Source: Arthrobacter sp. ov407 (GTDB taxonomy: Bacteria; Actinomycetota; Actinomycetes; Actinomycetales; Micrococcaceae). Taken from it: a stretch of 64,000 nt of DNA. The stretch is from positions 59,970-123,969 of the forward strand of contig NZ_FNGD01000006.1 of NCBI RefSeq assembly GCF_900102895.1, given 5' to 3'. Each line of letters starts with the position of its first letter. Position 1 is the first letter of the stretch. The notes beneath the pieces are model-generated. The model made no database searches. It worked only from the letters and a program-made list of their open reading frames with translations, and had not been told where the DNA came from. The position numbers and the translations under genes were made by a program. This document shows, in pieces, positions 3,839 to 29,652 of the stretch.

Positions 3839-3852
3839 TGGCACGGCTGCAC

Positions 3853-11813: not shown

Positions 11814-12074
11814 TTGACCCCGCTTCCCGGATAGCAATGAACCATGACTGGATTCCAAGATAGGCCGAAAGACGGCTTCCACCAACCGGTGAGTCGACCT
11901 GGAGCAGTCGCGTTGCCTTTACCCAAGTTGCGCTACGGCTCGGTAACGCGTCTGGTCGGTCACCAAATGCAGGACGAAAAGTCATCTGCGTGCCCGTTTC
12001 GCGAAATGTATGCAAATACGGCAGCGTCGCGGATACTGTTGGCCATGGGTACCCAAGGAGAGGCTGGGGGGCGG

Positions 12075-13520: not shown

Positions 13521-13527
13521 CCACAAA

Positions 13528-14883: not shown

Positions 14884-14889
14884 CCCGGT

Positions 14890-16215
14890 TTACCGAACGA
14901 CGGACCTCAACTCGGCTCGAATGCGCGCGCCGTAGCTTTCCGAACTGTGCCGGTCGAAGGCTTTAACTGCGTCGGACTGCGCATGATCCCGGTAGCTCGC
15001 CCAGTCGTCGATTACGCGCTCAATGGCCCCGGCCAGCGCCGCTGCGTCGCCGGGGGGAACCATCTGGGCGCTCGGGTAGTTGCCGGCCGCTTCGCGAAGA
15101 CCGGACGTGTCACTGACAATGACCGGCCGGGCGGCGAGCAGGGCTTCAACGGCAGTATTTCCAAATGGTTCATCGAGTCTGGATGGCACGAGGACAATGT
15201 CGGCCCGCGCGATGCAGGGCCAGATGTCAGGCGCGAATCCATGGAAGGTCACGGCCTCTTCTAGGCCAAGGTCTTCCACGTGTTGGCGTAATTCGCTCTC
15301 GTACCACTCATAGCCAGGAAAAACACCCCCAACGATACTGAGGGAAGCCTTCACACTTTGCCTGTTGACAACACTCAGGGCGCTGATAGCCACGTCCACT
15401 CCCTTGCGCCACGAAAGTCGTCCCACGTAGAGAAGCCGAACAGGCTGCGTGAGTTCTGTGCGCGGCGTATCAGGGCAGGGTGGTCCCGGGACCCCGTTGT
15501 ATACCACCGCGGTACGAACAGACAGCCGACGAACAGCAGACGTCAGTACCGAGGCACTGTATTTGCTGTTGGCAATGATCGATGTGGAAAGTAGGAGGGG
15601 CGCCGCCAGCAGAAACTTGAGGGCCCTGGGCGCAGAGCCTTCCGCTTCATGCACATGAGTGAGAACCGGCTTCCCGGACAGCCTCGCGAGGACGGACCAT
15701 AGTGGAATCGTAACGGTGTTGACGTAGACGACGTCAGGGTTGCAGCTTCTCATCAAGCGCAGGCCGGCCGACATTCCCTTGGCACTCTGGACGACGAACA
15801 AGGCGAAGCCCCTTGGCTTCAAGATGCTTTTGCGCAGAACAGGGGTTGGGCAGATGGCCACGGTGGCCCCGCTCGCTTCGATCTTCTGCATCAGCGGGCC
15901 AGCCGAGGGTAATGCCACCGTCACTACGATTCCGCCGGCCACAAGCGCTTTGACACTTTCGAGTAAGACTCGGTCTGAACCGTAGAGTTCAGGACTCGGG
16001 TGGGCCACCAAAACGCTGCGGACGCGGCGGCCCGCAGATGACTCCTGTGCCCGGCGCGCTCCGAACGCGGTGAGGAAAGCGGAATTCACCCGTACTCCGA
16101 TCGTCGGGAATTGATATGCCGTAACACCCGATGCCTTAGCGGGGGGGCGAGTACGATACACCCTATACAACTTCAGCCTCGCATCCCAGAGCCGGCGAAC
16201 ACGTTTGACCGGCAC
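14890..16215 (-). CDS. Glycosyltransferase family 4
   Basis: The GT-B core begins near VRSVLVAHPSPELYGSDRVL and contains NTVTIPLWSVLAR, LTHVHEAEG, IIANSKYSA, VVYNGVPG, RLLYVGRLSWRKGVDVAISA and the donor site EPFGNTAVEALLAARPVIVS, a clear GT4 pattern. The open frame reaches GTG 16335, but that would overlap the divergent lipoprotein gene by 61 bases. GTG 16215 (about 441 residues) or TTG 16170, which has GAGG upstream, is more likely. It converges on the polymerase gene with only 6 bases between. It probably adds a further sugar to the same polymer. Confidence 0.8.
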   Translation of the reverse strand: MPVKRVRRLWDARLKLYRVYRTRPPAKASGVTAYQFPTIGVRVNSAFLTAFGARRAQESSAGRRVRSVLVAHPSPELYGSDRVLLESVKALVAGGIVVTVALPSAGPLMQKIEASGATVAICPTPVLRKSILKPRGFALFVVQSAKGMSAGLRLMRSCNPDVVYVNTVTIPLWSVLARLSGKPVLTHVHEAEGSAPRALKFLLAAPLLLSTSIIANSKYSASVLTSAVRRLSVRTAVVYNGVPGPPCPDTPRTELTQPVRLLYVGRLSWRKGVDVAISALSVVNRQSVKASLSIVGGVFPGYEWYESELRQHVEDLGLEEAVTFHGFAPDIWPCIARADIVLVPSRLDEPFGNTAVEALLAARPVIVSDTSGLREAAGNYPSAQMVPPGDAAALAGAIERVIDDWASYRDHAQSDAVKAFDRHSSESYGARIRAELRSVVR

Positions 16216-16274
16216 GCCCGAATGGTAGCGGCCGAAGCGGTTGATTACATGGCAGATAACAATCGAGAGGTGAT

Positions 16275-17738
16275 GTGTTGGCCAAGAGTCCAGCCCGCCG
16301 CATGCCCATGACAGGTAGATTCGCAGCTGCTTCACGCCGGGAATTCCTGCTTTTGTCGACAGCGTCCCTCGCGCTTACTGCCTGCAGCGAACAACCGCCC
16401 AGCCCTGCTCCCATCAGGAAATACACTATTGAGAGCCTGCTTGGAACCACTCCTTTTTACATTGCGCATCGCGGATCCGGAGATAACTGGCCAGAACATA
16501 CCGCCCTGGCATATTCGTCGGCGATTGCCTTCGGTGTCAAGGCCATCGAAATTTCGGTGTGCGCGACGGCGGACGGCGTTCTGGTCTGCCATCATGACAC
16601 CAACACTCTGGAGTTGACCGGGCACGATCTGGAAATTTCGAAGCAGACGTATGCGACGCTCTCAGGACTCCGCAATGACGCCAGGCAGTGGCTGGGACCG
16701 GCCTCACAGCCGCAGCCTATTCCTCGGCTGAAGGATGTCCTTGATGCTCATGCTGCCACGCATGTTATTTTCATCGAGGACAAACAGGCGACCAATACCA
16801 AGGCGTTGCTAGACCTTATGGATAGCTACCCGGATTCCAAAAATCATTTTGTCTGGAAACAGCCAGCCTCGTCCAAAACTCGTGTGGAGGCCGCCGCCCG
16901 CGGGTACAAGACATGGGGATATTTCATGGACGGAAGCAGCGCCACCTACGACAAATACGCGCCGAATCTCGATTTCCTAGGCGTGTATCAAGCGGCGACC
17001 GACGCCGAAGTGACCGCATTGATGGTGTACGGAAAGCCAGTCATTGCCTGGGAAGTCCACACACGGTGGATGCGAGACCGGCTGCAGGCCTTGGGCGTCC
17101 GGGGACTTATGTGTTCAAACGTTCCGTACGTCACTAACGACGTGGCGCTACTTACCTCTGACACCTTTGCCTCCGGCAACCGGAGCGCCGGTGACCTGCC
17201 TTGGACCATTGGCTGGGACTTACAGCCAAAGCTGCTGGCAGGCGCCGGGTCCATCGAGCTGGATGACGGATCGGACTTCAGCTATTCCATGGGGTCGCTT
17301 TGTCCGGTTCCCTCGGACAACTATTCAATCACCTTCGATGTGCGGTGGCCGGGCCGTGTCCCGCCGGGTGAAGCACAAGCAGGCATCGCCTTCGGCCTTC
17401 ACGACGACCGGCCGTACCGCCCCAATGTTCCCGGGACATCGGGTGGCTATCACCTGCTGATCAACGACGCCGGAAAGCTTGAGCTATACCGGCGCAGCGC
17501 GAACGGCGCCACCTCAGAGGTGGTCGCCGCATTGAACACAGCCGCACCCCAGGGAGGGCAATGGCTCAAGTTTTCCGTGACCGTGACCCCGGAGGAGATT
17601 CGGTGCTCGCGTCTGGACAGCGGAGGACAATCCCTATCGGCCGCCGACAACACCTACAGGGGTGGCTACCTGATGCTGTGCAAGGCCTATGACGGCGAGG
17701 ACGCGGTGGAGTTCCGGTCGGTCTCCGTTACGGCCTGA
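16275..17738 (+). CDS. Tat-exported GDPD-family lipoprotein with C-terminal beta-sandwich domain
   Basis: The product has 487 residues from GTG 16275; GAGAGGTGAT just upstream matches the 16S 3' end, and TTG 16278 is also possible. Residues 20-37 read SRREFLLLSTASLALTAC, combining a twin-arginine signal with a lipobox Cys at residue 37. The GDPD domain (about 55-300) has FYIAHRGSGDNWPEHT (catalytic His-Arg and Glu), AIEISVCATADGVLVCHHD (metal-binding and second His) and FIEDKQ. The family hydrolyses glycerophosphodiesters to glycerol-3-phosphate plus alcohol. The last ~190 residues look like a LamG/DUF1080-type beta-sandwich. Its place at the end of the exopolysaccharide locus suggests action on glycerol-phosphate-decorated wall polymer or released lipids (inference). 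Confidence 0.85.
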   Translation: MLAKSPARRMPMTGRFAAASRREFLLLSTASLALTACSEQPPSPAPIRKYTIESLLGTTPFYIAHRGSGDNWPEHTALAYSSAIAFGVKAIEISVCATADGVLVCHHDTNTLELTGHDLEISKQTYATLSGLRNDARQWLGPASQPQPIPRLKDVLDAHAATHVIFIEDKQATNTKALLDLMDSYPDSKNHFVWKQPASSKTRVEAAARGYKTWGYFMDGSSATYDKYAPNLDFLGVYQAATDAEVTALMVYGKPVIAWEVHTRWMRDRLQALGVRGLMCSNVPYVTNDVALLTSDTFASGNRSAGDLPWTIGWDLQPKLLAGAGSIELDDGSDFSYSMGSLCPVPSDNYSITFDVRWPGRVPPGEAQAGIAFGLHDDRPYRPNVPGTSGGYHLLINDAGKLELYRRSANGATSEVVAALNTAAPQGGQWLKFSVTVTPEEIRCSRLDSGGQSLSAADNTYRGGYLMLCKAYDGEDAVEFRSVSVTA

Positions 17739-17881: not shown

Positions 17882-18805
17882 GTGGTAGAAGACCCAGCGC
17901 CGCCACTCGACGCCGAGCTGGATGCCGAGCCTGCCACCGGAAGCGCCGTTCCCCGGTTGACCCCGCGGCACCAGCAGCTAATCGTCACGATCTACGGCCT
18001 GTACGGGCGCTCCAACGGCGGCGCCCTGCCCGTCTCGGTGCTTATTTCCATGCTGGATGACCTTGGCGTCGAGTCTTCCGGGGTGCGCTCTTCCGTGTCC
18101 CGGCTCAAGCGCCGCGGTGTGCTGGAGAGTGTCAAGCTGGGCGGCGTGGCCGCCTACCGGCTGGCCCCCAACCTGGAGGATGTCTTCCAGGAGGGCGACC
18201 GCCGCATCTTTTCGCCCCGGCGTGCGACGGCGGCGGACCGCTGGCTCCTCATCGCCTTCTCCGTCCCGGAATCGCAGCGCCACCTTCGCCACCAGCTGCG
18301 CAGCATGCTGACCCGTATGGGCTTCGGTTCTGTGACCCCGGGGCTCTGGATTGCCCCGGGCAACACCTATGAGGACATCAGGCACCAGCTCGAGCGGACA
18401 GGGCTGACGGAATACGTGGAGTTCTTCAAGGCGGAGCACCTGACCGCCGAGGACGTCAAGGACAAAGTTTCCCGATGGTGGGACCTGCCGGCCCTGGAAT
18501 CGCTTTACGCGGAATTCATCGAACGCTTCGCTCCGGTGCTGGAACGCTGGGAATCCGCGGCCGCGTCGGCGTCCGGGCCCGACGCCGACCGGGCGGCCTT
18601 CGCGGACTACGTCCAGCTCCTCACCCAGTGGCGCCGGCTGCCCTATCTGGATCCCGGCCTGCCCGAGGAGTTCCTGCCGCCAGGCTGGCACGGGTTGACC
18701 GCGGAGCGGATCTTCGCGGAACTGCACCGTCTCCTGAACGGCCCGGCCCGGCAGCATTCCGAGCGGCTGCTGGGGACCTCCGGGAGTTCCGGGACTGCCC
18801 AGTAG
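17882..18805 (+). CDS. PaaX-family transcriptional regulator
   Basis: The product has 307 residues from GTG 17882. The N-terminal winged helix (LTPRHQQLIVTIYGLYGR, GVESSGVRSSVSRLKRRGVL) and the central PaaX domain (WLLIAFSVPESQRHLRHQLR, then LWIAPGN) match the PaaX family. PaaX represses phenylacetate genes and is released by phenylacetyl-CoA, so its relatives commonly sense aromatic CoA thioesters. It sits at the edge of a cluster with an aromatic-CoA ligase and a CoA-thioester monooxygenase, which fits control by anthraniloyl-CoA or salicylyl-CoA (inference). It converges on the Rid gene with 2 bases between. Confidence 0.88.
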   Translation: MVEDPAPPLDAELDAEPATGSAVPRLTPRHQQLIVTIYGLYGRSNGGALPVSVLISMLDDLGVESSGVRSSVSRLKRRGVLESVKLGGVAAYRLAPNLEDVFQEGDRRIFSPRRATAADRWLLIAFSVPESQRHLRHQLRSMLTRMGFGSVTPGLWIAPGNTYEDIRHQLERTGLTEYVEFFKAEHLTAEDVKDKVSRWWDLPALESLYAEFIERFAPVLERWESAAASASGPDADRAAFADYVQLLTQWRRLPYLDPGLPEEFLPPGWHGLTAERIFAELHRLLNGPARQHSERLLGTSGSSGTAQ

Positions 18806-18807
18806 TC

Positions 18808-19209
18808 CTAGCCCTGGCCCGACACGACGGCGATGGCCTGGATCTCGATCAGCGCCTCGTCCTGCCAGAGCCGTGTGACGCCGACGCCGGCCATCGCGGG
18901 ATAGTCGGTGCCCGCCATCTCGCGCCAGATCCGCCCGATTTCGCGGCCGTTCTTCTGGTAGTCCTCGACGTCGGTCAGGTAGATGGTGACGTTGACCAGG
19001 TCCGAGGGCATGCCCCCGGCCTCGGCCAGCGTGGTGAGGACGTTGGAGAAGCACTGGCGGAACTGCTCCACGATGCCGCCGGGAACAATCTTGCCGTTGC
19101 TGTCCATGGCCGTCTGGCCGCCCAAGTACACGGTGTTGCCGGCCAGGATGCCGTGGGCGAAGCCGGAGGGCTTGGCCAGGGCTGCGGGGTTGATGACCTT
19201 GTGGTTCAT
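18808..19209 (-). CDS. Rid (YjgF/YER057c/UK114) family protein lacking the usual catalytic Arg
   Basis: The product has 133 residues, the normal family length. LAGNTVYLGGQTAMDSNGKI and VNVTIYLTDVEDYQKNGREI are typical. In RidA enamine/imine deaminases a conserved Arg follows Pro-Ala near the C-terminus (PAR). Here the sequence is YPAMAGVGVTRLW, with Met in place of that Arg, so it belongs to a non-canonical Rid subgroup and may not be a standard imine deaminase. It is transcribed divergently from the catabolic operon starting at 19467, with a 257-base gap. Rid proteins accompany several aminated-aromatic pathways. The exact role here is open. Confidence 0.85.
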   Translation of the reverse strand: MNHKVINPAALAKPSGFAHGILAGNTVYLGGQTAMDSNGKIVPGGIVEQFRQCFSNVLTTLAEAGGMPSDLVNVTIYLTDVEDYQKNGREIGRIWREMAGTDYPAMAGVGVTRLWQDEALIEIQAIAVVSGQG

Positions 19210-19466
19210 GGTGGCTCCTCATTGAGTCGGCGGTGCTTTGGTGAATGCGAGCGTAACTGCGGGCCGGTCGGCGTCGGACGGGCGTCGGGCCGGTGGCCGG
19301 ATTCGGAGCAGCGGCCGGGTCTACCCAAACCGGTGAATCCGTGTTAACTTGAGCATATGTGACGACCGTAAAAATGTCGACATACCCGCTGGGGGATGGC
19401 GCACTGGACACGTCACCGGAATCGGCAAAGGCGCCGGTTTCGCCGTCGAACCGGAAGTGAAGAAAC

Positions 19467-20339
19467 ATGCGCCTTGCGACCGTTATTACGGCAGTCCGCG
19501 ACGCCAAGGGCGGTCCTGCCACCCGCGCCGCCGTGCAGTCGGGGGACCGGTTTGTGCTGCTGGCCGCACAGGACCTCAGCGAACTGCTGGGAAGCGCCGG
19601 CTGGCGGGAGGAGGCAGCCGCTGCCGTTGCCGCCGCGGAAACCGCTGGCGGCATCCCGGGCGACTCCATCCCCGTAGACGCCGCCCGGTTCGGCACCGTG
19701 CTGCCGCGCCCGTCCAAGGTCATCTGCTGTGGCCTGAACTACGCGGACCACATTGCGGAAATGGGCCGGGAGCTGCCCGAATACCCCACCCTGTTCGCCA
19801 AGTACGCGGACACCCTGATCGGCGACGGCGACGTCATCGACGCCGCGGGGCACGGCGCCCGGCTGGACTGGGAGGCGGAACTGGCGGTCGTCGTTGGCGC
19901 CCAGCTCAAGAATGCCTCGCCGGAGGAAGCCTCCGCCGCGATCGCCGGCTACACCGTGGCGAACGATATCTCCATGCGCGACTGGCAGAGCCGCACCCTG
20001 CAGTGGTTCCAGGGCAAGGCCTTCGACCGCACCACCCCGCTGGGACCCGTGCTTGTGACTCCGGACGAATGTGACCCCGAAGCCGGCGTTCGGGTCCGTT
20101 GCCTGGTCAACGGCGAGGAGGTCCAGAACGGCAGCACCAAGACACTCGTCTTCACCGCGGCCGCCCTGCTGTCCTATATCTCCACCTTCACCAGGCTGAG
20201 CCCCGGCGACGTCGTCCTCACCGGCACCCCCGGCGGCGTCGGCATGGGCGCCATTCCGCCGCGCTTCCTGCGCGACGGCGACGTCGTCAGCACCGAGGTC
20301 GAGGGCATCGGCACGCTCACCAACACGGTCCGTCTCTGA
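19467..20339 (+). CDS. Fumarylacetoacetate hydrolase (FAH) family protein
   Basis: The product has 290 residues. ICCGLNYADHIAEMG, then the metal ligands in LDWEAELAVVVG (E-x-E) and NDISMRDWQ (Asp), the Lys in FQGKAFD and the C-terminal VVLTGTPGGVGMG are all present, so it should be an active divalent-metal enzyme. Family members cleave acylpyruvates such as fumarylpyruvate or maleylpyruvate, the last step of gentisate-type pathways, or act as oxaloacetate decarboxylases or HHDD isomerases. It is the first gene of a rightward operon with cupin, thioesterase, ligase and monooxygenase genes. In that setting a fumarylpyruvate-type hydrolase is the best guess. Confidence 0.85.
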   Translation: MRLATVITAVRDAKGGPATRAAVQSGDRFVLLAAQDLSELLGSAGWREEAAAAVAAAETAGGIPGDSIPVDAARFGTVLPRPSKVICCGLNYADHIAEMGRELPEYPTLFAKYADTLIGDGDVIDAAGHGARLDWEAELAVVVGAQLKNASPEEASAAIAGYTVANDISMRDWQSRTLQWFQGKAFDRTTPLGPVLVTPDECDPEAGVRVRCLVNGEEVQNGSTKTLVFTAAALLSYISTFTRLSPGDVVLTGTPGGVGMGAIPPRFLRDGDVVSTEVEGIGTLTNTVRL

Positions 20340-20409
20340 CGCCTCCGGCTCCCACCCAACACCACCCCGCGGCGGCAACCCAGGCTGCCGCCGACAGAGA
20401 GGAAACACC

Positions 20410-20859
20410 ATGACCGAACAGATTGCCGATCAGCTGACAGAGCAGGTTGTCCCCGTCGTGACCCGCAAGGGTGCTGAGCACCGCGACACCGGCCAGTCCG
20501 GCGGAGCCGTCCGGATCTCCGGCGTCAGCCCGCAGCACACCCCTGCTACGAAGATTTGGTACGGCCAGGTCAGCAACGAACCCGGCTACCGCTCCTTCCC
20601 GCACCACCACGGCGAGGCCGAGACCGGCGGCTACGTGCTGCGCGGCCACGGCCGGATCTACTTCGGCGAGGACTACAAGGAGTTCATCGACATGACCGAG
20701 GGCGACTGGGTTTTTGTCCCGCCGTACATGCCGCACGTGGAAGCCAACATGAGCATCACCGAGGAACTCGTCTGGCTCACGGCGCGCACCCCGGAGAACA
20801 TTGTGGTGAACCTCGACGACGTCGACGATTCCGTCCTCGCTGGGTACCGCCGGGCATGA
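20410..20859 (+). CDS. Single-domain cupin protein, candidate ring-cleaving dioxygenase
   Basis: The product has 149 residues with AGAGG about 8 bases before ATG. Cupin motif 1 is seen in GYRSFPHHHGEAETGGY (H-x-H and Glu metal ligands) and motif 2 in GDWVFVPPYMPHVEAN (Pro, His, Asn). All four expected metal ligands are therefore present, which argues for an enzyme rather than a sugar-binding cupin. Gentisate dioxygenases are usually bicupins of ~340 residues, while 3-hydroxyanthranilate dioxygenases are single cupins nearer this size. It overlaps the thioesterase gene by 4 bases and lies between an FAH hydrolase and CoA enzymes. Alternative: a small-molecule-binding or isomerase cupin. Confidence 0.8.
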   Translation: MTEQIADQLTEQVVPVVTRKGAEHRDTGQSGGAVRISGVSPQHTPATKIWYGQVSNEPGYRSFPHHHGEAETGGYVLRGHGRIYFGEDYKEFIDMTEGDWVFVPPYMPHVEANMSITEELVWLTARTPENIVVNLDDVDDSVLAGYRRA

Positions 20860-21728
20860 CCCCGACGTCGGAGATCCTGCTGTCCGCCCTCGAGCTGACG
20901 CCTGTGGAGCCGGACTTCCTCGACGAGGCCTACACCGCCACGACGCAGTACGTGCCGTGGCCCAAGGCTTACGGCGGCGACATGGTGGCCCAGGCCGCGG
21001 CCGCAGCAATGCGCTCGGTGGGGGATGACCGCTCGCTGCACTCGATGCACAGCTACTTCATGCGGCCGGCGGACATCGGCGCCGAGGTCCGCTATGAGGT
21101 GGAGCGGCTCCGCGACGGAAGGGGCTACTCCACCAGGCAGGTCCGCGCCTACCAGGGCGGCAAGACCGTCTACGTGGCCATGGCCTCCTTCCACGCGGAG
21201 GAATCCGGCGAGGAATTCGCCCGTGCCATGCCGGCGGCGATCCCGGATCCGGAGTCGCTGCCGTCCTCCGCCGACGTGCTTGACGGCGTCGAGGGCGATG
21301 CCGCGGCCTACTGGTCCGGCGGCCGCAGCTTCGACATGCGGCATGTGCCGGGCGCCGTCTACCTCAGTGTTGAGGGGGAGCAGGTGCCGCACCAGGCAGT
21401 CTGGGTGAAGGCCTTCGACCGGCTGCCGGATGACCCGGACCTGCAACGGGCGGCGCTGGCCTACGTCTGCGACTACACCATCCTGGAACCGGTGCTCCGG
21501 GTGCACGGCTACGCCTGGGGCGACCCGGGCCTGGTCACGGCCAGCCTGGACCACGCCATGTGGTTCCACCGTGAAGGCCGGGTGGACGACTGGTTGCTGT
21601 ACGTCCAGGAAGCTGTCTCCGCCCAGGCCAGCCGCGGCCTGGCGCAGGGTCACTTCTACGACCGGCAGGGCCGGCTCCTGGCCACCGTGGTCCAGGAAGG
21701 CATGATCCGGATGTCGACTGCTCCATAA
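20856..21728 (+). CDS. Acyl-CoA thioesterase II (TesB-like, double hotdog)
   Basis: The product has 290 residues from ATG 20856, overlapping the cupin stop (ATGA); a longer open frame upstream is only an extension through the cupin gene. YVPWPKAYGGDMVAQAAAAA and SLHSMHSYFMRPAD are N-terminal TesB motifs. SLDHAMWFHR (catalytic Asp), RGLAQGHFYDRQGRLLATVV and QEGMIR (Gln) close the second hotdog. It should hydrolyse a CoA thioester to the free acid. In this operon it could release the hydroxylated aromatic acid from CoA before ring cleavage (inference). Confidence 0.87.
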   Translation: MTPTSEILLSALELTPVEPDFLDEAYTATTQYVPWPKAYGGDMVAQAAAAAMRSVGDDRSLHSMHSYFMRPADIGAEVRYEVERLRDGRGYSTRQVRAYQGGKTVYVAMASFHAEESGEEFARAMPAAIPDPESLPSSADVLDGVEGDAAAYWSGGRSFDMRHVPGAVYLSVEGEQVPHQAVWVKAFDRLPDDPDLQRAALAYVCDYTILEPVLRVHGYAWGDPGLVTASLDHAMWFHREGRVDDWLLYVQEAVSAQASRGLAQGHFYDRQGRLLATVVQEGMIRMSTAP

Positions 21729-21843
21729 CTGCCCTTTAGCGTCGCCATAACGGCCGTTACGGAGCAATCGATGAGCCGTTCCACCTCTTATGAATGACCT
21801 CTTACCAGTGACCTCTTATCAAGGACGATACGAAAGGTTTGCA

Positions 21844-23493
21844 ATGGAACTGACGCCCTCGGCGCACCAGGACACCTTTGCGCGTGACAATCTGCCGCCG
21901 GCGGAGCAGTGGCCCGCGCTGGAGTTCATCCTCCCGGAACTGCAGTACCCGCAGCAGCTCAACGCCGCCACCGTGCTGATTGACGACGCCGTCCGCAGCT
22001 TTGGTGCCGAGCGGCCGGCCCTGCTCACCCCGGACGGCAACGCCTGGAGCTACGGTGAGCTGCAGCGCCACGCCAACCAGGTGGCCCAGGTCTTGGTCGA
22101 GGACTTGGGGGTGGTCCCCGGGAACCGCGTGATGCTGCGCTCGCCGAACAACCCGTGGCTCGTCGCGGCGTGGCTCGGCGTGCTCAAGGCCGGCGCCGTG
22201 GTGGTCACGATCATGCCGGCACTGCGCGCCAACGAGATCCGGGCCCTGCTGGAGCTGACCCGACCGGCCGCCGCCCTGTGCGACAGCCGGTTCCTGGACG
22301 ACCTGGCCGAGGCAGCCGGAAACGACGTGCCGGTGCTGGCCATGGGGGGCAGCACCGGCACGGACCTCGTGGCCCGCTGTGCTGCCAAGAGCGGCGAGTT
22401 CAGCGCCGTCCCGACGGCGGCGGACGACGTCGCGCTGCTCGGCCCGACGTCGGGCACCACCGGGACGCCGAAGATCACAATGCACTTCCACCGCGACATT
22501 CTCGCCAACGCGGACACCTTCGCCCGGCACATCCTCCAGCCGACGCCGGAAGACGTCTTCGCGGGGTCCCCGCCGCTGGCCTTCACCTTCGGGCTGGGCG
22601 GCCTTGTGGTCTTCCCGTTGCGTTTCGGGGCCGCCGCGCTGCTGACCGAACGCGCCACGCCGCTCGAACTGGCGCAGGCCGTGCACGCAGCGAAGGCCAC
22701 CATCCTGTTCACCGCACCCACGGCCTACAAGGCGATCCTCAAGGAAGGCGCCGAAGGGCTCCTCGCCACGCTGCGCACGGCCGTCTCGGCCGGCGAGCAC
22801 CTGCCGGCCGAAACCTGGCGCGCGGTCCATGAACGCACCGGCCTGAAGCTGGTCAACGGCATCGGTGCCACCGAAATGCTGCACGTCTTCATCTCCGCGG
22901 CGGGGGAGGACATCCGCGCCGGCGCCACCGGCACGGCCGTCCCCGGTTACCGCGCCACGATCCTGGACGATGACGGCCGGGAACTCGGCCCGAACGCCGT
23001 CGGACGCCTTGCCGTCATCGGCCCCACCGGCTGCCGCTACCTCAACGATTCGCGCCAGCTGGACTACGTCGTCAACGGCTGGAACGTCACCGGCGACACC
23101 TTCCGCCGTGACGACGACGGCTACTTCTACTACCAGGCCCGCTCCGACAACATGATCGTGTCCTCCGGCTACAACATCGGCGCCCCGGAGGTCGAAGCCG
23201 CGATTGACCAGCACCCGGACGTGATGGAAAACGCCGTCGTCGGCAAGCCCGACCCGGACCGGGGCAGCGTTGTCTGCGCCTTCATCGTGCTGCGCGAGGG
23301 CGTCGGGGCCGATGACGCGAAGCGCAAGGAAATCCAGGACTTCGTCAAGCGGACCATCGCCCCGTACAAGTACCCGCGCCAGGTGCACTTCGTTGACGGC
23401 CTGCCCCGCAATCCCAGCGGCAAACTCCAGCACTTCCGGCTGCGCGAGCAGCTGGCCGCTGACACCGCCACCCCCGAACACCAGAACGCTTGA
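21844..23493 (+). CDS. Aromatic acid-CoA ligase, 2-aminobenzoate/benzoate-CoA ligase-like
   Basis: From ATG 21844 the product has 549 residues; GAAAGG 6 bases upstream decides this over the in-frame ATG at 21790. It is an ANL-superfamily adenylate-forming enzyme: A3 loop LGPTSGTTGTPK, A5 region NGIGATEML, A8 hinge YYQARSDNMIVSSGYNIG, and the catalytic Lys in NPSGKLQ. The N-terminus SAHQDTFARDNLPP resembles 2-aminobenzoate-CoA ligases. It would convert anthranilate or salicylate, with ATP and CoA, into the aroyl-CoA. It is followed 10 bases later by the monooxygenase that would use that thioester. Confidence 0.88.
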   Translation: MELTPSAHQDTFARDNLPPAEQWPALEFILPELQYPQQLNAATVLIDDAVRSFGAERPALLTPDGNAWSYGELQRHANQVAQVLVEDLGVVPGNRVMLRSPNNPWLVAAWLGVLKAGAVVVTIMPALRANEIRALLELTRPAAALCDSRFLDDLAEAAGNDVPVLAMGGSTGTDLVARCAAKSGEFSAVPTAADDVALLGPTSGTTGTPKITMHFHRDILANADTFARHILQPTPEDVFAGSPPLAFTFGLGGLVVFPLRFGAAALLTERATPLELAQAVHAAKATILFTAPTAYKAILKEGAEGLLATLRTAVSAGEHLPAETWRAVHERTGLKLVNGIGATEMLHVFISAAGEDIRAGATGTAVPGYRATILDDDGRELGPNAVGRLAVIGPTGCRYLNDSRQLDYVVNGWNVTGDTFRRDDDGYFYYQARSDNMIVSSGYNIGAPEVEAAIDQHPDVMENAVVGKPDPDRGSVVCAFIVLREGVGADDAKRKEIQDFVKRTIAPYKYPRQVHFVDGLPRNPSGKLQHFRLREQLAADTATPEHQNA

Positions 23494-23503
23494 GAGGCAC
23501 CAC

Positions 23504-25885
23504 ATGAAAATCGCAATCATCGGCGGCGGCCCGGGCGGACTGTACTTCGCCGCCCTCATGAAACAGCTGGACCAGAAACACGAGGTCACCGTCTGGGAAC
23601 GCAACGCCGCGAGCGACACGTTCGGCTTCGGCGTCGTCTTCAGCGACGAGACGCTCGGCGGAATCGGCAACGCGGACACCGTGATCGCGGAGTACATGTC
23701 CGAGCGCTTCGCCCGCTGGACCGACATCGACATCCACTTCAAGGGTGGGCAGCACACTGTCGGCGGGCAGGGCTTCGCCGCCATGAGCCGGAAAGAGCTG
23801 CTCGAGCTGCTGCAGCGCCGCTGCGCCGAACTCGGCGTCGACCTGCGCTTCAGCACGCTGGCGCCGGATGTTGAGGAACTCAGCCGGGACTACGACCTGG
23901 TCCTCGCCGCGGACGGCCTGAACTCCGCCGTCCGCTCCCGTTTCGCCGAGGTGTTCCGGCCCAGCCTGGACGTCCGCCAGTCCAAGTACATGTGGCTGGG
24001 CACCGACCTCGTCTTTGAGGCGTTCAAGTTCTTCGTCAAGGACACCGAGCACGGCGTCATGCAGATCCACGGCTACCCGTACTCGGACGAGGGCAGCACC
24101 TTCATCGTCGAAATGCACGAGGACGTCTGGCGCAACGCCGGATTCGACGCCACTGAGGACCAGGCCTTCCGGCCCGGCGAAAGCGACGAGGCGGCGGTAG
24201 AGGCGATCCGTGCCATCTTCGCCGAGGAGCTTGAGGGCCATGAAGTCTTGGTCAACAACTCCAAGTGGATTAACTTCACCACGGTCCGCAACGAGTCCTG
24301 GCGGCACGGCAACATCGTGCTCCTCGGCGATGCCGCCCACACAGCGCACTTCTCCATCGGCTCCGGCACCAAACTGGCCATGGAGGACTCCCTCGCCCTG
24401 GCGGCCTGCCTGCACGAGCACGCCGAGCTCGGGGCCGCCCTGGAAGCCTACGAAACCGAGCGCCGCCCCGTGGTCGAATCCACCCAGCGCGCCGCCCAGG
24501 CGTCGCTGGAATGGTTCGAGAACATCGGCATGTACAAGGACCAGAACCCGGTACAGTTCTGCTTTAACCTGCTCACCCGCAGCCGCCGGATCACCTACGA
24601 CAACCTCAAGCTGCGCGATCCCGAGTTCGCGGCCCGGGTGGACGAGGAATTCGCCCGCACGCAGGGCATCGCGGGCAGTGCCCCTGCCATGTTCCAGCCG
24701 TACCGGATCGGCGGGCTGGAGCTGAAGAACCGGATCGTCGTTTCACCGATGGACATGTACTCCGCGACAGACGGCGTCCCGGGCAACTTCCACTTGGTCC
24801 ACCTCGGCGGCAAGGCCCTCGGCGGCGCCGGCCTGGTCATGACCGAGATGGTCTGCGTCTCCGAGACCGGCCGCATCACGCCCGGTTGCAGCGGCCTCTA
24901 CAACGAGGCCCAGCAGGAGAGCTGGCGCGCGATCGTCGAGTTCGTGCACCACCGCTCGACGGCGGCCATCGGCGTCCAGCTTGGCCATTCCGGCCGTAAG
25001 GGCTCCACCAAACTCATGTGGGAAGGCATCGACGAGCCGCTCCCCGAGGGCGGCTGGGAGCCGGTGGGCCCCTCGGCCATCCCGTACGGCTCCGGCAACC
25101 CGGCGCCGCGAGAAATTGGCCGCGCTGAAATGGACCAGGTCCGGGACGAGTTCGTCGCCGCGACAGTCCGTGCGGCCGCTTCGGGCTTCGACCTCTTGGA
25201 GCTGCACTGCGCGCACGGCTACCTGCTCTCCTCCTTCCTCTCGCCGCTGGCCAACCGGCGCAGCGACGAATACGGCGGATCACTGGAGAGCCGGCTGCGC
25301 TACCCGCTGGAGGTGTTCGACGCCGTCCGCGCCGCCTGGCCGGCGGACAAGCCACTGACCGTGCGGCTTTCGGCGACGGACTGGGCCCCGGGAGGCAACG
25401 ACGAGCACGACGCCGTCGCGATTGCCCGGGCCTTCGTGGAGCACGGCGCCGACGGGGTGGACGTCTCCTCCGGCCAGGTGGTCAAGGAGGAGACGCCAGC
25501 CTACGGCCGCAGCTACCAGACGCCGTTCGCGGACCGGATCCGGCAGGAAGTGGCGCACAAGGCAGGCGTCGCCGTAATCGCGGTGGGGGCGGTGTCCTCC
25601 TACGACGACGTCAACTCAATCCTGCTGGCAGGCCGCGCGGACCTCTGCGCCCTCGGCCGCACGCACCTGTTTGATCCGCAGTGGACCCTGCATGCGGCGA
25701 TCGAGCAGGACTACCGGGGGCCCGGCGCCGACTGGCCGCAGCAGTTCCGGGCCGGCAGCCGGAAGCCGCCGGCGGCCCGCACCGACGCGGTCCGGCCCCG
25801 GCTGGCGCTCGTGCGGGAGCCGGAGGCCGCCGAACTGCCGACGCACCTGCGCTGGACGCCGGCCAAAGTACCGGCGTCGGTCTAG
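23504..25885 (+). CDS. Fused flavin monooxygenase / OYE reductase: 2-aminobenzoyl-CoA monooxygenase/reductase or salicylyl-CoA 5-hydroxylase type
   Basis: From ATG 23504 (GAGAGG upstream) the product has 793 residues. Residues 1-385 are a class A flavoprotein hydroxylase: IIGGGPGGLYFAALMK (FAD-binding) and GDAAHTAHFSIGSGTKLAME (second FAD motif). Residues ~396-793 are an old-yellow-enzyme domain: FQPYRIGGLELKNRIVVSPM, GVQLGHSGRKGS, LHCAHGYLLSSFLSPLANRR (substrate and FMN contacts). This two-domain order is that of the 2-aminobenzoyl-CoA monooxygenase/reductase described from Azoarcus, and of proteins called bifunctional salicylyl-CoA 5-hydroxylase/oxidoreductase. Hydroxylation at C5 is expected; whether the OYE half reduces the ring here is not decided by sequence. 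Confidence 0.88.
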   Translation: MKIAIIGGGPGGLYFAALMKQLDQKHEVTVWERNAASDTFGFGVVFSDETLGGIGNADTVIAEYMSERFARWTDIDIHFKGGQHTVGGQGFAAMSRKELLELLQRRCAELGVDLRFSTLAPDVEELSRDYDLVLAADGLNSAVRSRFAEVFRPSLDVRQSKYMWLGTDLVFEAFKFFVKDTEHGVMQIHGYPYSDEGSTFIVEMHEDVWRNAGFDATEDQAFRPGESDEAAVEAIRAIFAEELEGHEVLVNNSKWINFTTVRNESWRHGNIVLLGDAAHTAHFSIGSGTKLAMEDSLALAACLHEHAELGAALEAYETERRPVVESTQRAAQASLEWFENIGMYKDQNPVQFCFNLLTRSRRITYDNLKLRDPEFAARVDEEFARTQGIAGSAPAMFQPYRIGGLELKNRIVVSPMDMYSATDGVPGNFHLVHLGGKALGGAGLVMTEMVCVSETGRITPGCSGLYNEAQQESWRAIVEFVHHRSTAAIGVQLGHSGRKGSTKLMWEGIDEPLPEGGWEPVGPSAIPYGSGNPAPREIGRAEMDQVRDEFVAATVRAAASGFDLLELHCAHGYLLSSFLSPLANRRSDEYGGSLESRLRYPLEVFDAVRAAWPADKPLTVRLSATDWAPGGNDEHDAVAIARAFVEHGADGVDVSSGQVVKEETPAYGRSYQTPFADRIRQEVAHKAGVAVIAVGAVSSYDDVNSILLAGRADLCALGRTHLFDPQWTLHAAIEQDYRGPGADWPQQFRAGSRKPPAARTDAVRPRLALVREPEAAELPTHLRWTPAKVPASV

Positions 25886-25898
25886 CGCTGGACGGCGC

Positions 25899-25930
25899 GG
25901 TGCCGGGCGGGGCTAGACCCGCCCGGCGCC
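25899..25930. terminator. Bidirectional hairpin terminator
   Basis: A 13-bp stem with one G-U pair (25899-25911 with 25918-25930) and loop GCTAGA lies between the convergent monooxygenase and thioesterase genes, and includes the thioesterase stop codon. It probably ends transcripts from both sides. Confidence 0.65.
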
Positions 25931-26401
25931 CTCGCGGCCGGTGACCTTGGCCGTCAGCTCCGCCGGCCACGGGGTGGCGGCCGTGCCGCCCTGGGCCACA
26001 TGAGCGGTGACAAAGGATCCGTAGGCGGCTAGGGCGCGGGGTTCGCCGCGGAACTCCTCGCCCCACACCTCAAAGCTGAATGTCATGGACGTGCGGCCGA
26101 TTTTCTCCACCACGACGGTGGTGGTGACCGGCTGGCCGAAGTACAACTTCGCCCGGTAGTTGAGCTCGTGGCGAACCCGCGGGGCCGTCGGGAAATACTC
26201 CGGCAGATCCAGGTCCCGGAACAACTTGGCCTCGCAGGCCTCAACAAAGCGGAGCACGGCCGAATTGTGCTGGTGCCCCGCGGCGTCCGTATCCACCCAT
26301 TCAATGGTCCGTTCCAGAGTCGCCGTCGTGGCCGTGCAGGGAAGGGACTGGGTGGGGTTCATGGAGGCCGCCTGGAAGTTCGAAGAACTGGAAGAGTGCA
26401 T
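25913..26401 (-). CDS. Acyl-CoA thioesterase, 4HBT hotdog fold
   Basis: The product has 162 residues from ATG 26401, or 149 from ATG 26362, which gives a more usual N-terminus. RTIEWVDTDAAGHQHNSAVL carries the catalytic Asp and the conserved GH-x-N of 4-hydroxybenzoyl-CoA-type thioesterases, and FVEACEAKLF and ELNYRAKLYFG are typical. It is the second thioesterase of the cluster, divergent from the TPP-enzyme gene with only 21 bases between ATG 26401 and ATG 26423. It may recycle CoA from dead-end aroyl-CoA thioesters or serve as the main hydroxyaroyl-CoA hydrolase. Confidence 0.83.
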   Translation of the reverse strand: MHSSSSSNFQAASMNPTQSLPCTATTATLERTIEWVDTDAAGHQHNSAVLRFVEACEAKLFRDLDLPEYFPTAPRVRHELNYRAKLYFGQPVTTTVVVEKIGRTSMTFSFEVWGEEFRGEPRALAAYGSFVTAHVAQGGTAATPWPAELTAKVTGREGAGRV

Positions 26402-26407
26402 TACTTA

Positions 26408-26415
26408 GGGGGAGG
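26408..26415 (+). promoter_or_regulatory. Shine-Dalgarno deciding the start of the TPP-enzyme gene
   Basis: GGGGGAGG lies 7 bases before ATG 26423. The longer open frame upstream runs through the antisense of the thioesterase gene and has no such site. Confidence 0.6.
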
Positions 26416-26422
26416 TAAGTCC

Positions 26423-28186
26423 ATGCTAGTAGCTTCACAAGATTCGCCCGGCACGCTTGCGCAGCCGCTCGATGACCCGCAGCAAGCGGCCGGAACAGTA
26501 GCCCAGCTGGTCGGCCGGACCCTGGCGGAGCTCGGCGTCGGGCATGTCTTCGGCGTCGTCGGCAGCGGCAATTTCGAGGTGACCAACGCCCTGCGCCTGG
26601 CCGGGGTGCCCTTCACCGCCGCCCGGCACGAGGGCGGCGCTGCCACAATGGCCGACGCCTACGCCCGGATGTCCGGCCGGGTGGGCGTCGTGAGCACACA
26701 CCAGGGCTGCGGGCTGAGCAATGCCGTCACCGGGATCGGGGAAGCCGCCAAGAGCCGCACGCCGTTGATCGTGCTGACGGCCGACACCCAGGCCTCCGCG
26801 GTCCGCTCCAACTTCAAAATCGACCAGGATGCGCTCGCCCGCAGCGTCGGAGCCGTGAGCGAACGGATCCATTCGCCGGCCACTGCTGTCGCGGACACCC
26901 TCCGGGCCTTCCGCACGGCCCGGAACGAACGCCGCACCGTGGTGCTGAGCCTCCCCCTCGACGTCCAGTCCGCCCCGGCCCCTGCAACCGCACAGGCTGC
27001 GGCCGCGCACCCGGCCGCTGTCGCCGAAGCCCAGCCGGTCCGCCCCGCCGCCCCCAGCGTCCGGCGCCTGGCACACCTGATCAACGCCGCGGAGCGCCCC
27101 GTCTTTGTGGCAGGCCGCGGGGCCAGGCATGCGCGGGAGGAACTGCTCAGTCTTGCCGCCCACGCCGGTGCCCTCGTGGCCACCTCCGCGGTGGCGAGCG
27201 GGTTGTTCCATGACGAAGAGTTCGCCCTCGGGATCTCGGGCGGATTCTCGTCACCACTCAGCGCCGAGCTGATCCAGGGCGCCGACCTGATCGTCGGCTG
27301 GGGCTGCGCCCTGAACATGTGGACCATGCGCCACGGCCGCCTGATCTCGGACGGGACCGCCGTGGTCCAGGTCGATGTCGAGGACTCCGCGCTTGGTGCC
27401 AACCGGCCTATCGGCCTGGGCGTGGTGGGGGATGCCGCGCTGACGGCATCGGATGTCCTCACCGAGCTGCGGACGCTCCAGCCGGCCCCCGCCCAAAGGT
27501 ACCGCACCGCGCGGAACGCGACGGCCATCGCAGAACGCTCGCGCTGGAACGACGTCGAAACGCCGGACCTCTCCGGTGGCGGACGGATCGATCCGCGGGT
27601 GCTGAGCCGCGAACTGGACGCCATCCTGCCGCCGGAGAGAATCGTCTCGATCGACTCCGGCAACTTCATGGGCTATCCCAGCACCTATTTGAAGGTCCCG
27701 GACGAGTTCGGCTTCTGCTTCACTCAGGCCTTCCAGTCGATCGGCCTCGGGCTCTCCACTGCGATCGGGGCTGCGCTGGCCCGGCCGGACCGGCTGCCCG
27801 TGCTCGGCGCCGGGGACGGCGGCTTCCTGATGGGCATCAGCGAACTGGAGACCGCTGTCCGGCTGGAGCTGCCGCTCGTCTGCATCATCTACAACGACGC
27901 CGGCTACGGGGCGGAAGTCCACCACTTCGGCGCGGGAGCTGCGGACGGCGCCGGTCCCGCCGTCGACCCCGCCGTTGATCTCAGTACCGTTACCTTCCCG
28001 GATACGGACATCGCCGCGATCGCCCGGGGCTTCGGCGCCGACGCAGTGACGGTCCGCAGCGTGGCGGATCTTGAGGGGGTCCGCACCTGGGTGCGCGAGC
28101 GGCCCTCCCGCCCGCTGGTCATCGATGCCAAGATCGCGTCCGACGGCGGCGCCTGGTGGCTCGCCGAGGCGTTCAAGGGACACTGA
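26423..28186 (+). CDS. Thiamine-pyrophosphate-dependent enzyme, benzoylformate decarboxylase / acetolactate synthase-like
   Basis: The product has 587 residues. The N-terminal pyrimidine-binding domain has GVVGSGNFEVTNAL and the catalytic Glu in AARHEGGAATMADAYAR. The central domain has FVAGRGARHAREEL. The C-terminal PP domain has GDGGFLMGISELETAVRLEL followed by YNDAGYG, the GDG...N motif that binds TPP with Mg. The family decarboxylates 2-keto acids or forms C-C bonds, and this protein cannot be assigned to one substrate. It lies within the aromatic cluster just before the AAHS transporter, so it may handle a 2-oxo acid such as an arylglyoxylate or a ring-cleavage product. Thiamine-precursor transport genes occur further right in the window but are not linked. 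Confidence 0.82.
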   Translation: MLVASQDSPGTLAQPLDDPQQAAGTVAQLVGRTLAELGVGHVFGVVGSGNFEVTNALRLAGVPFTAARHEGGAATMADAYARMSGRVGVVSTHQGCGLSNAVTGIGEAAKSRTPLIVLTADTQASAVRSNFKIDQDALARSVGAVSERIHSPATAVADTLRAFRTARNERRTVVLSLPLDVQSAPAPATAQAAAAHPAAVAEAQPVRPAAPSVRRLAHLINAAERPVFVAGRGARHAREELLSLAAHAGALVATSAVASGLFHDEEFALGISGGFSSPLSAELIQGADLIVGWGCALNMWTMRHGRLISDGTAVVQVDVEDSALGANRPIGLGVVGDAALTASDVLTELRTLQPAPAQRYRTARNATAIAERSRWNDVETPDLSGGGRIDPRVLSRELDAILPPERIVSIDSGNFMGYPSTYLKVPDEFGFCFTQAFQSIGLGLSTAIGAALARPDRLPVLGAGDGGFLMGISELETAVRLELPLVCIIYNDAGYGAEVHHFGAGAADGAGPAVDPAVDLSTVTFPDTDIAAIARGFGADAVTVRSVADLEGVRTWVRERPSRPLVIDAKIASDGGAWWLAEAFKGH

Positions 28187-28209
28187 CACCGTCCGTACAA
28201 TGCCTGACG

Positions 28210-28226
28210 ATCGTTACGCAAACGAT
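28210..28226. promoter_or_regulatory. Inverted repeat upstream of the aromatic-acid transporter
   Basis: ATCGTT-N5-AACGAT lies about 105 bases before the transporter start, in the most A/T-rich part of a 143-base gap. The spacing and position fit a regulator operator, possibly for the PaaX-family protein. No equally clear copy was found upstream of 19467. Confidence 0.35.
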
Positions 28227-28329
28227 ATATGCTGATTTGTTTACTGTCGGAATATAAGCGTGACACAGTGGGCACAGCATGTGAGCCACCGCACAAATCT
28301 CCTACGAAATCTCAACGAGAGGTACATCC

Positions 28330-29652
28330 ATGACGCAGTCAATGTCGACTGAGTTGCGCAACGAGGCCACAACCCACTGGAAGGGCCACGCCGTCCTCAT
28401 CCTGTGTTTCCTGGCCATCGTCTTTGATGGCTACGACCTGGTGGTCTACGGATCCACCGTCCCCACGATCCTGAAATTCCAGGAATGGGGTGTCACTCCC
28501 GCGCAGGCCGGCCTGATCGGCAGCCTCGCCCTGGTCGGCATGCTGGTCGGCACGCTCTCGGTCGGCATCCTGACAGACAAGCTGGGTCGCCGCCGCATCA
28601 TGCTCGCCTGCATCGCGTGGTTCTCCATCTGCATGCTGCTCACGGCCTTCGCGCCGTCCGCCGAGGTCTTCGGCTTCCTGCGGTTCCTGACAGGCCTCGG
28701 CCTGGGTGGCATCGTGCCGACCTGCATTGCGCTGACGGTCGAATACGCCCGCAAGGAGCGCCGCCAGATCGCCAACGCCGTGATGTTCAGCGGGTACTCG
28801 GTGGGCGGCGTCGGCGCCGCGCTGCTCGCCATCAACCTCCTGCAGCACATCGACTTCCGCTGGATGTACGCCATCGGCGCCCTGCCTCTGGTCACACTGC
28901 TCCCCATCGCCTGGAAGGTCCTGCCCGAATCGGTGGCGTACCTGGCCCGCAAACAGCGGATCGAAGAAGCGAAGGCCACCGCGGACCGCTACGGCCTGGT
29001 CTACTCGGACATCGTCACTGCCGAGGACGTCAAGACTGGCGCCGAGGCGCCGAAATCGGCCATGAAGACCCTGTTCACCCGCAAGTGGGTCCGCTCCACC
29101 GTCCTGTTTGCGCTCGCGAACTTCTGCGGACTGCTGCTGGTCTACGGGCTGAACACCTGGCTCCCGCAGATCATGCGCCAGGCCGGGTTCCAGCTCGGGG
29201 ATGCCCTGACGTTCCTGCTGGTCCTCAACGCCGGCGCGATAGTCGGCTCCATCAGCGCCTCCGTGCTGGCGGACAAGATCGGCATCCGCAAGGTGGTCAC
29301 CGGGTCCTTCATCCTGGCCTTCGTGGCGATCCTCATGCTGAGCCTCCAGCTGCCGCTGGCGATGCTGCTCGTGATTGTCGCGTTCGCCGGCCTCGGCTCG
29401 GTGGGCACCCAGATCCTCGTGGGCGGCTACTGTGCCACCCACTACCCGCAGTCCCTGAGTGCCACCGCACTGAGCTGGTCTCTGGGAATCGGACGCATCG
29501 GCGCCATCTGCGGGCCGCTGATCGGCGGGCTGATTGCCGGAATGGCCTTCGGCTGGCAGCTCAACTTCTACATGTTCGCGGCCTTCGCCGTGATCGGGGC
29601 GATCGTAGTGTTCTCGGTGCCGAAGCTGACCGAAATAGCCCCTGCGAAGTAG
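28330..29652 (+). CDS. MFS transporter, aromatic acid:H+ symporter (AAHS) family
   Basis: The product has 440 residues with 12 membrane segments; GAGAGG lies 7 bases before ATG. FDGYDLVVYGSTVPTI near residue 34 carries the conserved Asp residues in TM1 of PcaK/BenK-type carriers, and GILTDKLGRRRIM is the MFS loop 2-3 motif. The family imports 4-hydroxybenzoate, benzoate, gentisate and similar acids with protons. It is the last gene of the aromatic cluster and is the probable uptake system for its substrate. Confidence 0.9.
   Translation: MTQSMSTELRNEATTHWKGHAVLILCFLAIVFDGYDLVVYGSTVPTILKFQEWGVTPAQAGLIGSLALVGMLVGTLSVGILTDKLGRRRIMLACIAWFSICMLLTAFAPSAEVFGFLRFLTGLGLGGIVPTCIALTVEYARKERRQIANAVMFSGYSVGGVGAALLAINLLQHIDFRWMYAIGALPLVTLLPIAWKVLPESVAYLARKQRIEEAKATADRYGLVYSDIVTAEDVKTGAEAPKSAMKTLFTRKWVRSTVLFALANFCGLLLVYGLNTWLPQIMRQAGFQLGDALTFLLVLNAGAIVGSISASVLADKIGIRKVVTGSFILAFVAILMLSLQLPLAMLLVIVAFAGLGSVGTQILVGGYCATHYPQSLSATALSWSLGIGRIGAICGPLIGGLIAGMAFGWQLNFYMFAAFAVIGAIVVFSVPKLTEIAPAK

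Follow-up and report, generated by a model that had tools for sequence, protein, structure and literature searches.

A candidate CoA-dependent anthranilate pathway of Arthrobacter sp. ov407 with putative oxygenolytic cleavage of an alicyclic ring

Introduction

Anthranilate is a meeting point of the breakdown of tryptophan, kynurenine, the quinolone signal, indole and quinaldine. A gene cluster of Arthrobacter sp. ov407 raises the question of how the ring of such a compound, once bound to coenzyme A (CoA), may be opened when no genes of the β-oxidation type accompany the activating enzymes. The cluster lies at positions 17882–29652 of a 64,000-nt stretch of contig NZ_FNGD01000006.1 (the window, to which all positions refer unless a locus number is given), and its genes were called from open reading frames and matches to Pfam and NCBIfam families. 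A preliminary description of this DNA had listed nine genes, coding for a 2-aminobenzoate-type CoA ligase, a monooxygenase fused to an old yellow enzyme (OYE), two thioesterases, a cupin, an FAH-family hydrolase, a Rid protein, an AAHS-family importer and a PaaX-family regulator. All nine are present as open frames with family matches, and an unlisted thiamine pyrophosphate (TPP)-dependent enzyme is encoded besides.

The reading that we favour, with a probability of roughly 55 %, is that the cluster encodes a complete aerobic CoA-dependent anthranilate pathway which ends in the oxygenolytic cleavage of an alicyclic, not an aromatic, ring. The comparison with related loci assigns each cluster gene a testable step and suggests a new function for a small cupin, in a cluster that is found in various actinobacteria.

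Anthranilate as the substrate

Anthranilate is well supported as the substrate of the cluster, because the ligase of the homologous cluster on plasmid pAL1 has been verified and because homologous clusters have kynureninase, tryptophan dioxygenase (TDO) or aqd genes as neighbours or reside on a quinaldine plasmid. The ligase ARUE_113p00220 of Arthrobacter sp. Rue61a was shown biochemically to form anthraniloyl-CoA (PMC3534580), and the published primer used to clone its gene has its match where the ligase gene of the cluster begins, at position 12333 of L005, the locus from the quinaldine plasmid pAL1 (loci retrieved for comparison carry L numbers). This plasmid, also called pARUE113, holds the same gene set in nearly the same order: PaaX, Rid, FAH, cupin, TesB, ligase, fusion enzyme and the 4HBT thioesterase are shared with the window, whereas homologues of the TPP enzyme and of the AAHS importer were not found there. 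The window ligase, of the benzoate type (21790–23493, + strand; TIGR02262, 343 bits against a cut-off of 375) is 74–75 % identical to the pAL1 enzyme and by this similarity is predicted to be an anthranilate-CoA ligase, in agreement with the activation step of the preliminary description. Among the neighbours are kynureninase genes in L006 and L031, TDO with a kynureninase-like gene in L009, TDO in L026 and the aqd quinolone genes in L010; in the genome of strain ov407 itself, TDO adjoins kynureninase on contig C7.

Strain Rue61a can use anthranilate for growth, but none of 5-hydroxyanthranilate, gentisate and salicylate. Only its anthranilate-grown cells were found to contain the CoA esters of a C7H8O4 and a C7H7NO3 acid, and anthranilate breakdown was concluded to run only via CoA thioesters (PMC3534580). 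The lower part of the pathway is left unassigned in the accessible text of that paper, and the word “cupin” does not occur in its main text.

Three lower modules around one fusion enzyme

The ligase gene is followed by that of an FAD monooxygenase/OYE fusion of the 2-aminobenzoyl-CoA monooxygenase/reductase type (23504–25885, + strand). Hydroxylation and reduction of 2-aminobenzoyl-CoA have been described for Azoarcus evansii (as cited in PMC3534580 and PMC4539516); with the conserved residues of the window enzyme as additional evidence, both activities are supported as predictions here, and the preliminary description was right to place hydroxylation on the thioester. The fusion enzyme exceeds the curated cut-off of NF006101, “bifunctional salicylyl-CoA 5-hydroxylase/oxidoreductase” (1220 against 1078 bits), but the substrate in that name, salicylyl-CoA, is not supported for the window enzyme.

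The same genome has a second set of genes, from PaaX to the fusion enzyme, on contig C11 (L011, 9618–17914), with fusion enzymes that are 78 % identical; neither the TPP gene nor the AAHS gene has a match in the retrieved 20 kb. The core of cupin, TesB and ligase/fusion was found again in 22 of 80 fusion-enzyme loci, the ligase being matched in not all of the 22. Since the block recurs both as this second copy and in these loci, the gene set is far beyond chance.

The 80 loci of this main sample are the best of 593 relatives of the fusion enzyme and come mostly from Actinomycetota, many of them from Streptomyces. Presence of a gene means a tblastn match no farther than some 10 kb from the fusion gene, and absence may reflect the end of a contig; “ECH/ACAD” (β-oxidation type) denotes any match to an enoyl-CoA hydratase (ECH) or acyl-CoA dehydrogenase (ACAD) marker in the stretch. 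Species may be shared between this and the other samples used below.

Three lower modules can be told apart. The first consists of cupin and TesB and is found in 22 of the 80 loci, all with TesB, 21 with Rid (the one without a match sits on a contig of only 8.3 kb) and 18 with FAH. The second, ECH and/or ACAD, is found in 47 loci, of which 39 have Rid, none TesB and one FAH. The third is a bicupin of the gentisate 1,2-dioxygenase family and occurs in six loci, all with FAH and none with Rid; its marker, taken from L101, reaches 304 bits with TIGR02272 against a cut-off of 442 and therefore counts as a family member only. No locus holds the cupin together with ECH/ACAD (0/80), while 11, including the six bicupin loci, hold neither. 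A Fisher test of this exclusivity gives 7e-12, a value uncorrected for kinship although many rows are kin. Rid is thus common to both anthranilate-type modules, and TesB specific to that with the cupin.

In the 64-kb window, tblastn with markers from L012 and L013 (E 1e-6) found no match to ECH, ACAD, short-chain dehydrogenase (SDR), HAD or thiolase, so that linked lower genes like those of the A. evansii pathway are absent, and the bicupin marker has no match anywhere in it. The preliminary description had supposed that thioesterase, cupin and FAH replace β-oxidation and that they co-occur without linked β-oxidation genes, and on both points the loci bear it out. It had also held that homologous clusters lacking cupin and FAH would count against the proposal; such loci do occur, yet most of them carry the ECH/ACAD or the bicupin module instead.

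The OYE half and the state of the ring

If the ring is opened while aromatic, the OYE half of the fusion enzyme is useless; if a reduced ring is opened, it is needed. The motif HxxHGY plays an established catalytic role in the OYE family. It is present in the window enzyme, where it aligns with solved OYEs, and its residues H568, H571 and Y573 were followed through 97 fusions, namely those of the window, the 80 genome loci, the second copy in the same genome and 15 plasmid loci. This triad is intact in 91 of the 97: in 34/34 loci with the cupin, in 52/52 with ECH/ACAD and in the five left unassigned (L047, L048, L071, L089, L103), where no module was found. It is broken in all six bicupin loci, which read HHF, HHH, QHF, QHH (twice) and QHQ. 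Because of this distribution, the ring that reaches the cupin is most probably a reduced one. One locus, L037, was considered as a bicupin exception with an intact OYE and set aside: its weak bicupin (33 %) lies at the contig edge with a ligase (28 %) and FAH of its own, apart from the Rid-ligase-fusion block.

A second sample drawn from 197 genomes of the class gave the same picture. It comprises 40 of the 53 places found outside the strain's own genome, the 13 omitted being matches of at most 45 % identity. Here 25 of 26 fusions are OYE-intact, including four with the cupin (L180–L183, from genomes that are also in the cupin-first sample below), and the only broken one, L191, adjoins a bicupin that shares 65 % identity with the marker from L101. 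Among the intact ones, L174, L175 and L177 have a cyclase gene and the TPP enzyme with no lower module or Rid seen, and L176 and L185 have neither the cupin nor the ECH/ACAD pair. The other 14 regions have a stand-alone monooxygenase; six of these hold a bicupin (35–40 %) and FAH with no Rid match, and L203 has FAH and no bicupin match. Bicupin and FAH without Rid would be the pattern expected of salicylate-to-gentisate clusters.

Exchange of modules

A tree of the monooxygenase domain alone, built by a quick method on 68 of the 97 rows (thinned manually by leaving out L006 and 28 ECH/ACAD rows from Streptomyces), requires at least five changes of the cupin label, four of them forced by starred branches. 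The six bicupin rows need two separate changes on the same tree. In the alphaproteobacterial cupin clusters (L017, L020, L021, L023) the fusion enzyme is only 46–49 % identical to that of the window and the cupins are close, at 68–78 %. Judged by this tree, the cupin and β-oxidation modules have been exchanged several times. Genes of the ECH/ACAD type have been described as those that process the reduced product (PMC4539516), and the free exchange of the cupin module with them argues that this module would start from that reduced intermediate or from the next one.

Proposed route

In the pathway that we favour, anthranilate would be imported by the AAHS-family protein (28330–29652, + strand; TIGR00895, 314.6 bits against a cut-off of 418.6) and converted by the ligase to anthraniloyl-CoA. 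The fusion enzyme would hydroxylate C5, and its OYE half would reduce the product to the non-aromatic 2-amino-5-oxocyclohex-1-ene-carbonyl-CoA. The Rid-type enamine/imine deaminase (18808–19209, − strand; PF01042) may then hydrolyse the enamine to 2,5-dioxocyclohexane-carbonyl-CoA, the dienol of which is dihydro-gentisyl-CoA; the C7H8O4-CoA ester of strain Rue61a has the composition of this intermediate. Next, the single-domain cupin of 149 amino acids (20410–20859, + strand; Cupin_2), presumably acting before TesB, would use O2 to split the C1–C2 bond of the β-keto thioester and yield the CoA ester of 2,4-dioxopimelate. The TesB-type acyl-CoA thioesterase (20856–21728, + strand; TIGR00189, 235.7 bits against a cut-off of 292.9) would free CoA to give 2,4-dioxopimelate (succinylpyruvate), which the FAH-family hydrolase (19467–20339, + strand; PF01557) would cut into succinate and pyruvate. 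The best curated model for this hydrolase is NF053535, a 2,4-didehydro-3-deoxy-L-rhamnonate hydrolase, at 184 bits against a cut-off of 500.

The import, the steps of Rid, cupin, TesB and FAH, and the order of cupin before TesB are inferred. The atom balance of the scheme closes, with C7H8O4 + O2 giving C7H8O6 and the addition of H2O giving C3H4O3 and C4H6O4, and a cis-trans isomerase would be unnecessary. The second thioesterase, a 4HBT hotdog protein (25913–26401, − strand; PF13279/PF03061) with homologues in some cupin loci, may proofread stalled thioesters and clear 5-hydroxyanthraniloyl-CoA, a by-product formed under NADH limitation (as cited in PMC3534580). FAH, cupin, TesB, ligase and fusion genes are separated by 70, −4, 61 and 10 bp, the TesB start overlapping the cupin end by 4 bp, and because of these gaps they look like a single operon.

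Whether the scheme amounts to a ring-cleavage strategy of its own is a wider question, to which we give an even chance. A CoA-bound aromatic acid would be hydroxylated, reductively dearomatised and deaminated, and the dihydro-gentisyl-CoA split by a small cupin dioxygenase to succinylpyruvate, so that anthranilate would be turned into succinate and pyruvate with neither an aromatic-ring dioxygenase nor β-oxidation. Several swaps between this module and β-oxidation would have taken place in Actinomycetota and Alphaproteobacteria, and other alicyclic acids would be served by cupins related to this one. In the part of the open-licence literature that was examined, we found no account of a 2-aminobenzoyl-CoA pathway that includes a cupin, FAH or TesB, and neither “succinylpyruvate” nor “dihydrogentisate” occurred in the related open-licence literature searched. 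The lower route is probably a variant of the aerobic 2-aminobenzoyl-CoA pathway whose description we did not find in that literature.

The cupin and its possible reactions

The window cupin has the 3His-1Glu motif of metal cupins, and metal binding is predicted. The residues H65, H67, E71 and H109 are invariant among 23 aligned members, and the HxH...E...H pattern aligns, in a weak match, with the first cupin domain of oxalate decarboxylase (OxdC). It gave no match to TIGR02272 (gentisate 1,2-dioxygenase) at E 0.001. A small cupin that would cleave a 1,3-dicarbonyl compound with O2 calls to mind the β-diketone dioxygenase Dke1, which has three histidine ligands, unlike the window family with its conserved Glu; the PDB sequence searches returned no match to the cupin under the name Dke1.

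Several observations weigh against the favoured route, and the first concern the cupin itself. In the PDB it matches oxalate decarboxylases best (E 2e-5 with profile A4 and 3e-4 with profile A3), and no characterised close homologue was found; an AlphaFold2 model built with the A4 profile of 23 close members reached a pLDDT (predicted local distance difference test) of 43 and was not used. For these two reasons the name “dioxygenase” is putative and rests on context and the metal motif. Homologues also occur in stretches without a fusion gene (L018, L019, L022, L024). FAH is missing from 5 of 33 loci with cupin and fusion (L008, L028, L030, L044, L095) and was not seen near L182 and L183, two of the four cupin loci in the second sample, and the alphaproteobacterial clusters hold extra SDRs that are superfluous in the proposed scheme. 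In strain Rue61a the chromosome encodes a further ligase/fusion pair (ARUE_c41730/c41720), and growth on anthranilate is possible in the absence of the plasmid (PMC3534580), for which reason its C7H8O4-CoA may not stem from the pAL1 cluster. Hydroxyanthraniloyl-CoA was detected in Rue61a as well (PMC3534580), and both 5-hydroxyanthranilate and gentisate have been reported from Nocardia opaca (Cain 1968, via PMC4539516).

A gene of the Asp/Glu-racemase superfamily, with EutA and arylmalonate decarboxylase as its best models, is found in five of the six bicupin loci and in L191, and in none of the other 135 of 141 sources, hence in no cupin locus. Maleate isomerases belong to this superfamily, and the absence of the gene from cupin loci is weakly in line with a saturated product of the cupin route. 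As it is also absent from the bicupin locus L094 and from all six bicupin loci with a stand-alone monooxygenase, it is weak evidence and no general mark of an aromatic route, which again tells against the reading that we favour.

The fusion-free homologues (47–79 % identity) are accompanied by FAH and by SDR, OYE or TRAP-transporter genes, and in L022 an R replaces the first His of the motif; these four loci possibly belong to an undescribed pathway for an alicyclic acid. The SDR beside cupin and FAH in the alphaproteobacterial L017 has trans-4-hydroxycyclohexanecarboxylate dehydrogenase as its best model (240 bits against a cut-off of 400), and a relative at 65 % identity is encoded in L018, a likeness that would fit an alicyclic substrate of the cupin. 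Fifteen regions from Actinomycetes, each about 10 kb long, hold remote cupins (33–46 %) with no match to Rid, FAH or the fusion enzyme and are uninformative on function, and scans of viral contigs for distant cupins returned a single 38 % relative.

Alternative explanations

One alternative accepts that the ring is reduced and deaminated and takes the cupin for a metal-dependent hydrolase or tautomerase, by which the cyclic β-keto thioester would be opened or rearranged before FAH and TesB act. The cupin's lack of resemblance to any characterised dioxygenase, its oxalate decarboxylase relatives among solved structures and the many non-oxygenase functions that cupins have all speak for it. Yet hydrolysis of C1–C2 would produce 4-oxopimeloyl-CoA. 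FAH usually acts on 2,4-dioxo acids, to which this product does not belong, so that FAH would be left without a role. We consider this alternative unlikely.

The aromatic route of the preliminary description is quite improbable. Here the fusion enzyme would release 5-hydroxyanthraniloyl-CoA, TesB would free 5-hydroxyanthranilate and the cupin would open the ring in the manner of gentisate dioxygenase, deamination and FAH following. The gene families fit such a scheme, as do the by-product under NADH limitation and the products reported for Rue61a and N. opaca. But an aromatic substrate for the cupin is hard to reconcile with the OYE residues, kept in every cupin locus and lost in every bicupin locus, or with a cupin module that swaps with genes of the type acting on the reduced product. 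The failure of Rue61a to grow on 5-hydroxyanthranilate or gentisate points the same way, although a block in uptake is possible and 5-hydroxyanthranilate is converted cometabolically (PMC3534580).

A further possibility is degradation of the A. evansii type with β-oxidation enzymes encoded elsewhere, the cupin, TesB and FAH serving detoxification or another substrate. The early genes are indeed those of the A. evansii pathway, unlinked β-oxidation genes are common in genomes, and some cupin homologues have no fusion gene nearby (L018, L019, L022, L024). Main-sample loci were retrieved through the fusion enzyme, so that the linkage of cupin and fusion is there by construction and searches starting from the cupin are the fair test. 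Close cupins (at least 68 %) occur in 7 of 296 genomes of the class, the strain's own included, and in the other six all sit in the cluster; among 18 plasmid records with a cupin of at least 60 % identity, 14 have a fusion gene within a few kb, three (L018, L019, L022) have none in the stretch and NZ_CP154652.1 was left out. Together with the 22/22 cupin loci that hold TesB, none with linked ECH/ACAD, these searches make the explanation very unlikely.

A salicylate pathway through salicylyl-CoA, gentisyl-CoA and gentisate, offered earlier as a second use of the same genes, has the name and score of NF006101 and the CoA-dependent salicylate-to-gentisate route of Streptomyces sp. WA46 (as cited in PMC4600096) in its favour but is hardly credible, because salicylate-looking loci have a bicupin of the gentisate-dioxygenase family and an OYE that is broken or missing, and lack Rid, because the window cupin belongs to a different, single-domain family, and because the pAL1 ligase uses anthranilate and salicylate fails to support growth of Rue61a (PMC3534580).

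Comparison with known systems

With the aerobic 2-aminobenzoyl-CoA pathway of Azoarcus (Aromatoleum) evansii the window shares an anthranilate-CoA ligase and a monooxygenase/OYE fusion with an intact active site. Rid and 4HBT genes are found in ECH/ACAD-type relatives, the A. evansii system itself being compared by its description and not by its gene sequences. Unlike that pathway, the window has cupin, TesB and FAH in place of linked β-oxidation genes.

The Sdg pathway of Streptomyces sp. WA46, likewise compared by description and not by sequence, resembles the window in its ligase and in hydroxylation at the thioester level, and likely Sdg-type relatives share a homologous FAD monooxygenase and FAH with it. 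In these relatives a bicupin goes with a missing or degenerate OYE, and Rid is absent; the window, in contrast, combines a single-domain cupin with an intact triad and Rid. The salicylate-type rule of a lost OYE and no Rid derives from the six fusion loci, L191 and the six bicupin loci with a stand-alone monooxygenase; once the lower module is added to the OYE triad and Rid, it offers an easy way to tell anthranilate from salicylate pathways. A gentisate-dioxygenase-like gene (TIGR02272, 272 bits against a cut-off of 442) lies on contig C22 of the strain's genome, apart from both cluster copies.

For most of the fusion enzymes examined, the comparison suggests that “salicylyl-CoA 5-hydroxylase/oxidoreductase” gives the wrong substrate. 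KEGG-type sdgC calls, for example that in Massilia M117 (PMC13215587), may need to be rechecked for Rid, the lower module and the OYE residues.

Remaining genes and minor observations

The cluster opens with a gene for a PaaX-family repressor (17882–18805, + strand), which matches Pfam PaaX, PaaX_M and PaaX_C and falls under the cut-off of TIGR02277. The TPP-dependent enzyme (26423–28186, + strand) has three TPP_enzyme domains. Homologues of it adjoin “cyclase family” genes in L151 and L152 and share the stretch with a match to the cyclase marker in L092, L174, L175, L177 and L180, several of which hold anthranilate genes. The marker, from L007, is PF04199, the family of isatin hydrolases; PF04199 had no match in the genome of strain ov407. 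Our guess is that the TPP enzyme may act on isatinate, as an isatinate-type enzyme of an upper pathway.

Large genes resembling indolepyruvate oxidoreductase lie near anthranilate- or bicupin-type clusters in L007, L015, L021, L034, L073, L084, L101, L185 and L216, mostly with a cyclase-family gene, as in the bicupin loci L073 and L101; perhaps they catalyse oxidative decarboxylation directly to an aryl-CoA. In Arthrobacter ERGS1:01 (L006, 8262–10230), FAH and TesB are each split over two frames and unannotated, by decay or by sequencing error. In the window, third-position G+C of the chosen frames is 0.66–0.76 at 1–17738 and mostly 0.8–0.9 at 17882–64000, some of the right-hand frames being spurious. 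The step falls at the left edge of the cluster, and 1–17738 may be a foreign segment.

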